Source: Balneolales bacterium (GTDB taxonomy: Bacteria > Bacteroidota > Rhodothermia > Balneolales > Cyclonatronaceae). From it: 43,382 nucleotides of DNA. Where the stretch lies: NCBI GenBank assembly GCA_020832405.1, contig JAFIET010000022.1:1-43382 (forward strand), given 5' to 3'. Shown here in pieces: positions 15,313 to 43,111 of this stretch. Position 1 is the stretch's first letter. Every line of letters begins with the position of its first letter. A program made the translations under genes and the position numbers. The notes beneath the pieces are model-generated. The model was not told the DNA's origin, did no database searches, and worked only from the letters and a program-made list of their open reading frames with translations.

Positions 15313-15606
15313 ATGGAATCTCTGATTTTCAACCTTTTCATTTTTGTGCTGGCCTGTTTCGTGGGGTTTGAGGTCATCTCAAAAGTACCGACAACCCTGC
15401 ACACCCCGCTGATGAGCGGGGCCAACGCCATCTCCGGCATCACCCTTGTAGGGGCGCTCGCCATTGCAGGCTCCGGCTCGGGCACTACGGCAACCATCAT
15501 CGGTTTCCTGGCCATCGTTTTCGCAACCATTAATGTGGTGGGCGGATTTATGGTGACCGACCGCATGCTCGAAATGTTCAAGAAAAAGAAGGAGGATGAA
15601 GCCTGA
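15313..15606 (+). CDS. pntAB: NAD(P) transhydrogenase subunit alpha part 2 (PntAB)
   Basis: 97 residues made almost entirely of three hydrophobic helices (about 4-22, 36-57, 60-82) followed by a charged tail, FKKKKEDEA. The segment SKVPTTLHTPLMSGANAISGI is the family signature. It supplies the alpha part of the membrane domain II that carries the proton path. It starts 34 bp after pntAA, and its TGA stop shares a base with the pntB ATG (TGATG), indicating coupled translation. Confidence 0.95.
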   Translation: MESLIFNLFIFVLACFVGFEVISKVPTTLHTPLMSGANAISGITLVGALAIAGSGSGTTATIIGFLAIVFATINVVGGFMVTDRMLEMFKKKKEDEA

Positions 15607-17021
15607 TGGAGACCTTTATCCCTGAATCCTGGTACAGCTTCCTCCCGAATTTTGTTGAGCTTGCCTATCTGGCTGCTATCGTGCTGTTTATTCTCGGGCT
15701 GAAGCGCCTCAGCTCGCCGGCAACGGCCCGCTCGGGGAATCAGCTGGCTTCGCTCGGAATGTTTCTCGGGGTGATTGTGACCCTGCTCGACCGCGAAATT
15801 ATTGCCTTCGAATACATTCTTGCCGGCGTAATTGTAGGCTCGCTGCTGGGTGCAGCGGCGGCTAAAAAAGTAGAGATGACCAAAATGCCGGAGCTTGTTG
15901 CCGTCTTCAACGGATTCGGCGGTATTGCCTCAGCGCTGGTTGCCCTCGGGGCCTGGTTCCGCGTAACCGAGGCTGCCCTGCCTGCTGCCGATCTGCTGAT
16001 TATGGGCCTGAGCGTGCTCATCGGCGCGGTGACCTTTACCGGAAGCCTTGTGGCCTTCGCCAAGCTCAACGGCCTCATTAAAGGCAACGCCATCCTGTTT
16101 CCGTTACAGAATGCGCTGAATCAGGTGCTGCTTCTCGTCGCCCTTTTCGGCATCGGATGGCTGCTCGCTCAGCCGCTGGAAGTGGCGCCGGTTCTGCTGA
16201 TCAGCGGTATTTCTATCGTGCTTGGGGTGCTTTTTGTGATCCGTATCGGCGGTGCAGATATGCCGGTTGTGATTTCCCTGCTGAATTCGCTCTCGGGCAT
16301 TGCCGCATCTTTCGCCGGATTTGTGATCGACAACAACCTGCTGATTGTGAGCGGGGCGCTGGTCGGGGCAGCGGGACTCATCCTCACCGACATCATGTGC
16401 AAGTCCATGAACCGCAAACTTACGAGCGTACTCTTCGCCAAATTCGGCGGCTCAGGTACAGCCGGCGCGGGCGCCGATACCGGCGATAAATCCATCCGCG
16501 AAGTGCAGTCCACCGATGTGGCCGTGATGACCGCCTACGCCAAGCGCGTGGTAGTTGTGCCCGGCTACGGCCTCGCCGTTGCGCAGGCGCAGCACGTAAT
16601 CCGCGAGGTCGCCGACCTGCTTCAGAAAAAAGGCGTGGATGTCCGCTACGGCATCCATCCAGTGGCAGGCCGCATGCCGGGCCACATGAATGTGCTGCTT
16701 GCCGAGGCTAACGTGCCCTACTCGCAGCTGTTTGACATGGAGGAAATCAACGATGAATTCTTCCGCACCGATGTGGTACTCGTAATCGGCGCAAACGACG
16801 TGGTGAACCCGCAGGCCAAAACCAACCCCGGCAGCCCGATCTACGGCATGCCCATCCTGAACGTTGATGAAGCCAAACAGGTCGTCGTATTCAAGCGCAG
16901 CATGAACACCGGCTACGCCGGCATCGAAAACGACCTCTTCTACAACGAAAACACCTACATGTACTTCGGCGACGCCAAAGGTACCCTCGAAGACCTCGTG
17001 AGGTCGATCAAGGAGCTCTAA
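15606..17021 (+). CDS. pntB: NAD(P) transhydrogenase subunit beta (PntB)
   Basis: 471 residues. The first ~270 form eight or nine membrane helices of domain II. The C-terminal part from about 300 is the NADP(H)-binding domain III with VVPGYGLAVAQAQ, HPVAGRMPGHMNVLLAEA and VVLVIGANDVVNPQA, all typical. Length fits the family. Together with PntAA and PntAB it makes the complete proton-pumping transhydrogenase, which supplies NADPH for biosynthesis and stress defence. A Gly/Ala-rich linker (GGSGTAGAGADTGD) joins the two domains. Confidence 0.95.
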   Translation: METFIPESWYSFLPNFVELAYLAAIVLFILGLKRLSSPATARSGNQLASLGMFLGVIVTLLDREIIAFEYILAGVIVGSLLGAAAAKKVEMTKMPELVAVFNGFGGIASALVALGAWFRVTEAALPAADLLIMGLSVLIGAVTFTGSLVAFAKLNGLIKGNAILFPLQNALNQVLLLVALFGIGWLLAQPLEVAPVLLISGISIVLGVLFVIRIGGADMPVVISLLNSLSGIAASFAGFVIDNNLLIVSGALVGAAGLILTDIMCKSMNRKLTSVLFAKFGGSGTAGAGADTGDKSIREVQSTDVAVMTAYAKRVVVVPGYGLAVAQAQHVIREVADLLQKKGVDVRYGIHPVAGRMPGHMNVLLAEANVPYSQLFDMEEINDEFFRTDVVLVIGANDVVNPQAKTNPGSPIYGMPILNVDEAKQVVVFKRSMNTGYAGIENDLFYNENTYMYFGDAKGTLEDLVRSIKEL

Positions 17022-17051
17022 AGCCTGAAAGCAGCGGCTCAGCATTTTAGC

Positions 17052-17079
17052 AAAAAAAGGCGTTTTATCACGCCTTTTT
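17052..17079 (+). terminator. Terminator of the pnt operon
   Basis: aaaaaggcg (17054-17062) pairs with cgccttttt (17071-17079) around an 8-base loop. T runs exist on both strands, so it could work in either direction; it lies about 30 bp after the pntB stop. Confidence 0.8.
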
Positions 17080-17112
17080 CTGCGATTCTCCGGTAGTACC
17101 GGTCGTATTGCA

Positions 17113-17475
17113 TTTTTTTGGGGTGAACTCCGTGCGCATCACTGTCTGCAGTGCCAGCTTCTGACACCCTAATCCTACGGAAAAGCCCTTGCTTTTTGCC
17201 TGTTTCACGAAAAGGTGCGCCAAATTTAACAGATAACTGCCGTCCGGAATCTGTCTGAGCAACTCTACATTTTTCCGGTACAGAAAAACGCATGTTTCGC
17301 TATGAACCCGCCCTGACTGCTTGCAATTTTGTAAGGAGCGGGTGATTTTTATTTTTGCAGATAGTCTGCTGCCAAAATACTGTCGCCCAAAAAAAAGCAA
17401 GGTGTTCTCCGCCGAATTGGGGTGTCAGAAGCTGGCACCAAAAGCCAGTGATGTGCACGGAGTTCTCCCAAAAAC
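17113..17475. repeat. Non-coding element with ~85-bp imperfect inverted ends
   Basis: The left arm (17113-17198) and right arm (17389-17475) are reverse complements with scattered mismatches. Shared blocks include gaactccgtgc, catcactg, tgccagcttctgacaccc and an outer poly-T/poly-A end. Each arm contains a small internal hairpin such as ggtgtc-agaagct-ggcacc. The ~190 bp between the arms have no convincing gene. The structure resembles a miniature inverted-repeat (MITE-like) element or a remnant of a larger one. No target-site duplication was identified with certainty. Confidence 0.6.
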
Positions 17476-17574
17476 TAAACGTAAAGCTCGTGAGACCCGG
17501 ATGCGGGAATCCGGAGAAGAACGCCCGAACCGGGACGTGGAAACAGCACTTTTGATGCAAAGAATGAGATCAGG

Positions 17575-17633: not shown

Positions 17634-19754
17634 TTAGCTGAAACGCACATTAATCCCTGCCTGCCAGTTGCGTCCGGGGGAGGGCTCGTAGAAACGGCCG
17701 CCGAAACCGTTGATGATAACCGAGCCGTTGTAGCGCTCATCGAAGATGTTGTTAATTTGCAGGAAGGGGGTGATGCGGGTGTGATCGCCTATCGGAAGCG
17801 AAATCCAGGAAGCATTGAGATTAAACACGGTGTAAGCATCGTTTTTGGCGGTGTTGATGCTGTTCACGTAGTAGCTCGCGCTGTAGTCGCCCTCAAGGCG
17901 CAGTTGCAGCGAACCGGGCCGCACCTCCGCATAGCCGCTGATGCGGTGCTTCGGGATGCCCGGCAGCTGATTCCCTTTGAGTCCTTCTCCTGCCTGCACG
18001 AGCTCATCGCTGTCGAAAGTGAGGTCGCTGAAGCTATAGCCAGCCTGCAGGGTGAACATCCTGACCGGCATCCATTCGGCAAAGAGCTCGAAACCGTTGT
18101 GACGGGTCGCGCCGACATTGCGGAAATAGCTTCGGTCGTTTTCAGCCACAAACTGCTGCAGCACATCATCAACATACATGGTAAACACGGCAGCATCGAG
18201 GGTGAGGTTCAGCTGGGAAAGTGTGCTGCGGGTACCGAGCTCAAGCCCGATGGTACGCTCAGGGCGAAGGTCGGGGTTGAATCCGCCGGTCATATCCGGG
18301 CGGTTCACCAGCTCGGTTGTTGTCGGGGTTTCGAAACCGGTGGTGAAGTTGAGGTAGGTGAACCAGTCGCCGCTCTGATAGCTGATGCCCGCCATCGGGC
18401 TAAGGGCGCCAAAACTGCGGCTGCCGGAAGTATCTTCCCCACCCTGCCGGAACCGGTCGCTATTGCGAAAGTCGAACCAGTCAGCCCGCAGACCGGCGGA
18501 AAACGCAAAGTTACCGAAGGGAATTTTCACCCGCGAAAAAGCGGCAAGGCTGTACACATCCTCCTGCTGATCCAGCGTAAGCGGGCCCTGATCGCCGCCG
18601 TTCCGGGCTTCATTCACCCAGTTGCGGCGGCTGTCGCTCTGTATGGCCGCATCAAAACCGACGCCGAAGCTGAAATCCTGATACTCCTGCTGAAGCGTGG
18701 ACCGGAGTCCGCCGGCGAGGCGGTCAACCTGAATCCAGGCAAAAGCCAGCGGATTCTGCAGCTTGCGGGCCAGGCCCCAGGTCTGAACTTCGAGATCTCC
18801 CTGATCGAGCAGCAGGCGGTAGCGCGCGCCAAACTGACCGTGACGCGTAATTTTGCGGGCGTTTTGCGCCAGATTGTTGGGGGCCGCGAGGTCGGGTGTT
18901 TCGGCGGCTTCAGTCGCGGTGAGGGCGCCGGGGTTGTCGCTCGCAGGGGATTCAAGCACGGCGGCGGTGAGGCGCAGCCGCGAGCGCTCATCGAGGGTGA
19001 TATCAGCATGCCCGCCAAAGCGCCAGGCTTCAAAGCGGCTGTGATCGCGGAAGCCATCCTGCCACAGCCGCGAGCCGTAAATCTGATAACGGTTGCCTCC
19101 AACATTAAAGCCGGCTTCCACATCCTGCTTGCTGTAGCCGAAACTTCCCGCAGATACGCGCGCCCTTACATGGGGTTCGGGGGAAAAATTGGCGGTTGAC
19201 ATCAGCAGGGCGCCGCCGCCGGCATTTCCCCAAAAAGAAGAAACCGGGCCGCGCACCACTTCTACATCTTTAATGAAGGAAGGGTCGATCAGCGTCATGA
19301 TGCTTTGTCCGTCGGGCATGGTGAGGGGCACGCCGTCCATCAGAATATGAATACCCCGAACCCCGAATGCGGCCCGCCATCCCATCCCCCGGATTGAAAT
19401 GCGCTCGCCTACGGCAAAATTATTCCGGTCGTTCACCCATAGGCCGGGAATGCCCCTGAGCGGCTCAGTGAGCACAAGCCCGGGAGCGCTCAGCCTGCGT
19501 TCTTCTGAAATCCGGAAGCTCGTAACTGCAAAAGGCGCCTGAGCCGAGGTTTCGGTGAGGCGGGCGGCTTCGATGCGAACATCTTCGAGCGTTACCTTAA
19601 GGGTATCGCTCAGGGCCGTATCTGTAGTGAGTCTTTCAGCCTGAGCACGAAACGGGAAAGCAAGCATTAAAACAGCTGCAAACAAAACTGCAGCAACGGA
19701 AGCATTTGTAAAACTGACTGAAGGGCTGTGAGTTCGAAAATCTGAAACCATCAT
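17634..19754 (-). CDS. TonB-dependent receptor (siderophore/metal type)
   Basis: 706 residues from the ATG at 19754 (a second ATG follows directly; the frame extends to 19826 but that adds sequence ahead of the signal peptide). The signal segment VAAVLFAAVLMLAFPF ends near RAQA. The plug begins around VTLEDVRIEAARLTETSAQAPFAV, with ERISIRGMGWRAAFGVRGIHILMDGVPLT and VEVVRGPVSSFWGNAGGG, as in FecA/BtuB-like receptors. The rest is a 22-strand barrel ending NWQAGINVRFS. There is no CarboxypepD_reg domain, unlike the receptor at 7261-9756, which suggests a small chelate such as a siderophore, haem or cobalamin. No transporter or TonB gene is adjacent, so the ligand is open. It is divergent from gapA. 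Confidence 0.92.
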   Translation of the reverse strand: MMVSDFRTHSPSVSFTNASVAAVLFAAVLMLAFPFRAQAERLTTDTALSDTLKVTLEDVRIEAARLTETSAQAPFAVTSFRISEERRLSAPGLVLTEPLRGIPGLWVNDRNNFAVGERISIRGMGWRAAFGVRGIHILMDGVPLTMPDGQSIMTLIDPSFIKDVEVVRGPVSSFWGNAGGGALLMSTANFSPEPHVRARVSAGSFGYSKQDVEAGFNVGGNRYQIYGSRLWQDGFRDHSRFEAWRFGGHADITLDERSRLRLTAAVLESPASDNPGALTATEAAETPDLAAPNNLAQNARKITRHGQFGARYRLLLDQGDLEVQTWGLARKLQNPLAFAWIQVDRLAGGLRSTLQQEYQDFSFGVGFDAAIQSDSRRNWVNEARNGGDQGPLTLDQQEDVYSLAAFSRVKIPFGNFAFSAGLRADWFDFRNSDRFRQGGEDTSGSRSFGALSPMAGISYQSGDWFTYLNFTTGFETPTTTELVNRPDMTGGFNPDLRPERTIGLELGTRSTLSQLNLTLDAAVFTMYVDDVLQQFVAENDRSYFRNVGATRHNGFELFAEWMPVRMFTLQAGYSFSDLTFDSDELVQAGEGLKGNQLPGIPKHRISGYAEVRPGSLQLRLEGDYSASYYVNSINTAKNDAYTVFNLNASWISLPIGDHTRITPFLQINNIFDERYNGSVIINGFGGRFYEPSPGRNWQAGINVRFS

Positions 19755-21087
<1,333 letters not shown>

Positions 21088-43037: not shown

Positions 43038-43111
43038 GGGCGGTTAGCTCAGTTGGTTAGAGCGCCACGTTGACATCGTGGAGGTCGATGGTTCGAACCC
43101 ATTATCGCCCA
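43038..43111 (+). tRNA. tRNA-Val (GAC anticodon)
   Basis: The 74-nt cloverleaf has acceptor stem GGGCGGT/ATCGCCC, D-arm TTAGCTCAGTTGGTTAGAGC, and anticodon stem CCACG/CGTGG around loop TTGACAT (anticodon GAC, valine). The T-arm loop is GTTCGAAC. The CCA end is not encoded: CCC follows the discriminator A. A terminator follows. Confidence 0.95.

Follow-up and report, generated by a model that had tools for sequence, protein, structure and literature searches.

Group IIC introns prefer sites just past terminator hairpins and are strand-biased, and the REP/BIME elements in enterics are said to have roles at transcript ends or in the organisation of the chromosome. A dependence on strand has also been described for IS608 and ISDra2, which target the lagging-strand template (PMC6006769, in the part of that paper covered here). 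In this work we analyzed an inverted repeat found in a Balneolales genome, whose arms turned out to be members of a high-copy family of short extragenic repeats with preferences for gene ends and for strand.

The window, that is, the whole stretch of DNA analyzed (43,382 nucleotides), contains at 17113-17475 an inverted repeat with arms of ~85 bp, which a previous sequence-only reading had described as a MITE-like element of about 360 bp without a gene. The inverted repeat is real: an inverted-repeat search of the window paired 17151-17197 with 17392-17438 (85% complementary) and 17116-17147 with 17443-17474 (88% complementary), and the plus strand of a 373-nt stretch folded at -170 kcal/mol and its minus strand at -173 kcal/mol, far exceeding chance when compared with 100 shuffles (z of -15.4 and -14.1, respectively). 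The arms have diverged, as had been noticed from the letters, the match between them being 82% over 83 bases by BLAST (E 1.5e-15). The window contig has a tRNA gene at each end (99-171 on the minus strand, 43038-43111 on the plus strand).

Two genes converge on the inverted repeat, their 3' ends lying on either side of it: a pntB-like gene (15606-17021, plus strand; an ORF named by eye from its translation, with relatives in genomes of the same genus and, among named hits, a best match to a Balneolaceae MAG at 63%) and a TonB-dependent receptor-like gene (17634-19826, minus strand; an ORF and gene call, also named by eye from the translation). Between the two stops, at 17021 and 17634, the codon-usage gene caller found zero genes, in agreement with the absence of a coding sequence proposed earlier. 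Ahead of the left arm, a terminator-like hairpin belonging to the pntB-like gene itself occupies 17050-17083 (plus strand; inverted repeat I5, with T-rich sequence after it). This arm, copy 1 of the repeat (17107-17199, plus strand; 98.7 bits and E 4.4e-21 with the profile model R1 described below, 83.0 bits with nhmmer), is in sense with pntB and starts 85 nt past its stop (locus L048:3001), while the right arm, copy 2 (17390-17483, minus strand; R1 89.2 bits, E 1.3e-18, nhmmer 74.1 bits), is in sense with the minus-strand receptor gene, about 150 nt past its stop (L048:3284). The 190-nt spacer between the facing copies (17200-17389) contains no called gene and is unrelated to the spacers of other pairs. 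No repeat copy follows pntB at the corresponding site in three other genomes (G005, G002 and G004), an observation in favour of the mobile reading given below.

The repeating unit is one ~85-bp arm and not the 360-bp whole. The sequence-only reading had proposed a search of the arms against the whole genome, and this search was positive: compared by BLAST with its own genome (G000, a 3.96 Mb draft in 188 contigs), the window region gave 71 matches, mostly ~85 bases long, and a 93-bp profile model (R1), built from an alignment of 42 copies (A1), matched 92 copies. In G005, a complete genome of the same genus (4,294,247 bases), R1 matched at least 150 copies; 15 further copies were found in 400 kb located away from those listed, which by extrapolation puts the total probably nearer 280. 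The distribution is patchy, lineage-specific and high-copy, since these were the only two of 128 Balneolales genomes searched in which the repeat was present, the other 126 having none. No match came from the four remaining genomes of the genus or from five others in its family, and plasmid and phage collections held no relatives of the repeat; an exact pattern scan of named genomes also gave 0 matches, a result in which near genomes may be hidden. Our literature search returned no description of the family, and in the main text of PMC6243061, within the part covered, "repeat" never appears.

For the study of genomic context 246 copies were fetched, 163 from G005 and 83 of the 92 from G000, as six of the 69 G000 copy regions were left out of the fetch; gene neighbours are codon-usage gene calls made in this analysis. 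The core reads, in order, a T-run with GGGG, AACTCCGTG..CATCAC, a variable middle, CCCAAA..C and CCCTTGCTTTTTG. Its edges are sharp, information dropping at both ends when the 42-copy alignment is taken as anchor, with weak extra words outside it (CCTGAACC and GGCATTT upstream, AGGCGCT downstream). Two columns had no variation at all in 148/148 aligned copies and stand beside columns that vary freely; the core is polar and under strong constraint at the base level, without RNA structure.

Copies prefer the 3' ends of genes and convergent gaps. Only 2 of the 246 overlapped a called gene; 99 lay between convergent genes, 37 between divergent genes, and 68 and 33 in tandem gaps, in sense and antisense to the upstream gene respectively, with 9 copies outside these four counts because they lack a flanking gene on one side. 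In G005 convergent gaps numbered 53/143 among occupied gaps versus 19/144 among control gaps (>=100 bp; p 3e-6), the control regions having been chosen to avoid the 150 listed copies and not being, therefore, a random sample. Sense copies were concentrated 30-89 nt past the stop (78/172). A strong hairpin immediately preceding the T-run of the repeat was found with 14/95 near-sense copies, 3/60 sense copies located farther away and 0/65 antisense copies, so the copies placed right after an intrinsic terminator are a minority.

The orientation of the repeat has two separate ties, one to the upstream gene and one to the replication strand. The first tie is seen in the excess of sense copies in tandem gaps (p 6e-4) and in single copies within convergent gaps, 55/73 of which are closer to the gene whose sense they share (p 1.7e-5). 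As for the second, the top strand of the repeat falls on the C-rich strand in 103/150 copies (p 6e-6), the replication arms being assigned from the GC skew of the fetched regions only. The same bias was displayed by single copies from gaps of the convergent or divergent type (53/71, p 4e-5), for which the direction of the genes is uninformative; called genes are on the G-rich (leading) strand in 53% of the cases. Among tandem copies the replication bias was strong for those in antisense (18/22) and null for those in sense (25/46).

Forty-eight copies form 24 close pairs (<700 bp), facing each other in 24/24 cases, 13 of them between convergent genes and 11 elsewhere. Members of a pair are slightly more alike than other pairs from the same genome (mean rank 0.65, p 0.013); the arm similarity of the window pair, with a rank of 0.98, hints at a local origin or a local equalisation of these two sequences.

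No cognate transposase of the repeat was identified in G000 or G005. The former gave no match to Y1_Tnp, RVT_1 or DDE_Tnp_1, an absence that counts for little given that this genome is a 188-contig draft; the latter gave 28 matches to DDE_Tnp_1, 5 to Y1_Tnp and 0 to RVT_1. Four Y1 proteins of G005 that were examined are of the IS200 type and flanked by palindromic or tandem repeats of their own, and these proteins fall below the NCBIfam cut-off for RAYT. In 3/5 Y1 regions of G005 a whole or partial copy of our repeat lay within about 1 kb, by eye more than its density predicts, and the two-sided bracketing typical of RAYT genes was seen in 0/5. Membership in a RAYT-driven REP family was consequently rejected, G000 having no Y1_Tnp match and the G005 genes having their own repeats. 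A group II intron or other retroelement was also rejected, with 0 RVT_1 matches in both genomes and none to an Rfam intron in the window; likewise an association with insertion sequences, the PF01609 places of G005 looking no closer to the repeat than density predicts (judged by eye from the coordinates). The IS200-type genes of G005 (L310:600-2400, L312:1200-2900, L314:1500-3200 and L311:1300-2500) each sit amid their own repeats, for example ATCCCGAAGGGATG-type palindromes for the L312 gene and tandem repeats of 79-80 bp for the L311 gene, which look like separate REP-like families.

We consider it moderately probable that the family is a lineage-specific, non-autonomous extragenic repeat, REP-like in its behaviour, which spreads by a strand-specific process linked to replication; we infer, that is, that the repeat is mobile. 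Under this explanation non-autonomous DNA would be copied by an enzyme acting in trans, fresh copies would become established close to terminators, favouring one orientation relative to the fork, and those disturbing genes or promoters would be lost; the constrained core may then be the recognition site for that copying enzyme or for a host factor. The large inverted repeat of the window would follow from the placement of its two copies, one downstream of each of the convergent genes. Counted against this reading are the lack of a mobiliser and of target duplication, the lack of near-identical copies in G000, where the best pair has an identity of 0.89, and the tandem-sense copies without replication bias. 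Moreover, the many places shared by the two species are not predicted by free transposition alone.

These shared places bring in the main rival explanation, namely a gene-end element maintained by the host, a polar site on DNA or on the transcript, bound by a host factor and selected place by place, with proposed roles in transcription end, mRNA-end protection or chromosome organisation. The two genomes are well separated, their orthologous genes having an identity at fourfold sites of 0.53 (14,472 sites), and the flanks of shared-place copies are near random identity; nevertheless, of 80 G000 copies considered, 41 have an orthologous neighbour among the G005 regions fetched, and for 33 of these a G005 copy lies beside the same gene. 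The places correspond in position and orientation: the distance to the common gene agrees across species (rho 0.82), with 15/22 same-orientation pairs within 25 nt versus 5.1 expected, a set from which the copies of locus L046 were left out. Of the gaps whose two bordering genes are the same in both species, 14 had the repeat in both and 45 lacked it in both, with 1 occupied solely in G000 and 0 solely in G005, a concordance that is ascertained, as only regions holding copies entered the comparison in both genomes. The invariant columns next to free ones, the preference for 3' ends and the facing arrangement of all the close pairs also speak for a host element.

However, the repeat is absent from the four other genomes of the genus, including a member without it whose pntB is almost as similar (88% vs 93%), and 37/246 copies lie in divergent gaps and 33 in tandem antisense. 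Besides, species variants at shared places and recent subfamilies require copying or conversion. Column 71 is C in 78/80 G000 copies and in 45/145 G005 copies, and at shared places in only 11/25 of the latter; copies at orthologous places resemble each other no more than copies drawn at random from the two species (identity 0.645 vs 0.634, rank test p 0.57). G005 has subfamilies of its own with identities of up to 95%, which together with the species-specific column 71 point to copying after the species split. Five G000 copies, at 3 loci, could be matched by an orthologous flank to stretches of G005 remote from any listed copy; a partner was present for 2 of them (one locus) and missing for the other 3. 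Taken together, some places are old and shared and others not, the copies having been homogenised within each species. On balance we regard a purely host-maintained element as unlikely, though both explanations can be true at once if an invader was later used by the host.

No clean pair of empty and filled sites was found at the base level, which also counts against the mobile reading. The sole discordant orthologous gap measures 283 bp with a copy in G000 (L046, 2871-3154) and 97 bp without one in G005 (L174); as the difference of 186 bp is larger than the 93-bp model, the mobile unit may exceed the core. A facing pair of G000 (L099:3001-3269) has a spacing of 83 bp, and its G005 equivalent (L143:3094-7315) has ~4.2 kb between the copies, flanked by the same genes; in this insert there are small ORFs, one of which starts like a lipoprotein, and the codon-usage caller made no gene call. 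A large gene is bracketed by copies in both species (L053:3001-6168 in G000, L348:16501-19660 in G005), at distances of 76 and 153 nt in the former and about 76 and 156 nt in the latter.

Rather improbable, in our estimation, is a third explanation, which would account for the stability of gene-end places on the time scale of species, the re-homogenisation of copies within each species and the fixed polarity to transcription and replication: a repeat driven by homing or conversion, or a polar site active at the meeting of replication and transcription, kept without any recognisable transposase.

A true MITE of ~360 bp, that is, an insertion sequence with an internal deletion and with the 85-bp arms as its terminal inverted repeats, could account for the facing of every close pair, including the 11 that are not between convergent genes, and for the likeness of the arms in some pairs. 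Yet 198/246 copies are single, no other lying within 700 bp, and the pair spacers are unrelated, with lengths of 24-567 bp and, among 21 pairs, common matches no longer than 14-20 bases. Target duplications, searched around 244 copies with words of 5-10 bases, were not detected, no offset having >4 matches outside the T-runs of the element, a search for which the true ends of the element are uncertain. Such a MITE is therefore very improbable; what stands from the MITE-like description is a non-coding, multi-copy sequence of probable mobile origin, the 360-bp inverted repeat having failed as its unit.

Single cores fold approximately like their shuffles (40 of the 246 cores per strand; mean z of -0.51 for the plus strand and -1.19 for the minus strand), and the small hairpins described in each arm, although readable in the window, are not a family-wide trait. 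A pseudoknot was dropped, as couplings between columns do not follow base pairs. A multi-copy structured non-coding RNA, the other possibility raised from the sequence, has in its favour the strong sequence conservation and the long hairpin that a co-transcribed pair would form, but is hardly tenable, because RNAalifold gave a consensus of only 3 pairs, none with a double change, a run on 80 of the 246 cores gave nothing on either strand, the column couplings track subfamilies, and Rfam had no family match, only sub-threshold ones at the arms.

Returning to the reading of a mobile, strand-specific repeat, its mechanism is constrained by the biases for 3' ends and replication strand, the strictly facing pairs and the shared positions with species variants, and can be compared with the known systems. 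Like group IIC introns, it takes sites after terminator hairpins and has a strand bias; unlike them, it is 85 bp long, the Rfam scan of the window gave no intron, and G000 and G005 have no reverse transcriptase. It resembles the single-strand transposons of the IS200/IS605 type and their non-autonomous derivatives (PMC6006769, in part) in its fork-tied orientation and its lack of terminal inverted repeats and target duplication, although no matching end structures are shown for it, the Y1 genes of G005 carry repeats of their own and the G000 draft is without Y1. Correia and RUP elements, MITEs that are named in PMC2817692, are also short, non-coding, dispersed and intergenic; our unit differs from MITEs in that its ends are not reverse complements (consensus, by eye), and no target duplication or parent insertion sequence was found, only the Y1 regions having been compared with the profile. 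The differences from REP elements are a polar core of 85 bp where REPs have a short palindrome headed by GT(A/G)G, neither palindrome nor head being seen by eye in the consensus, no RAYT flanked by the repeat and no alternating tandem arrays. With the REP/BIME/REPIN families and their RAYTs (PMC2817692, again in part) it shares more than 100 extragenic copies, the location at gene ends, the opposed pairs, and the species-specific families with a patchy distribution. The repeat behaves, then, like REP elements while falling outside their definition; it adds an apparently undescribed family to the Balneolales and offers a test case for the spread of REP-like repeats without a visible RAYT.
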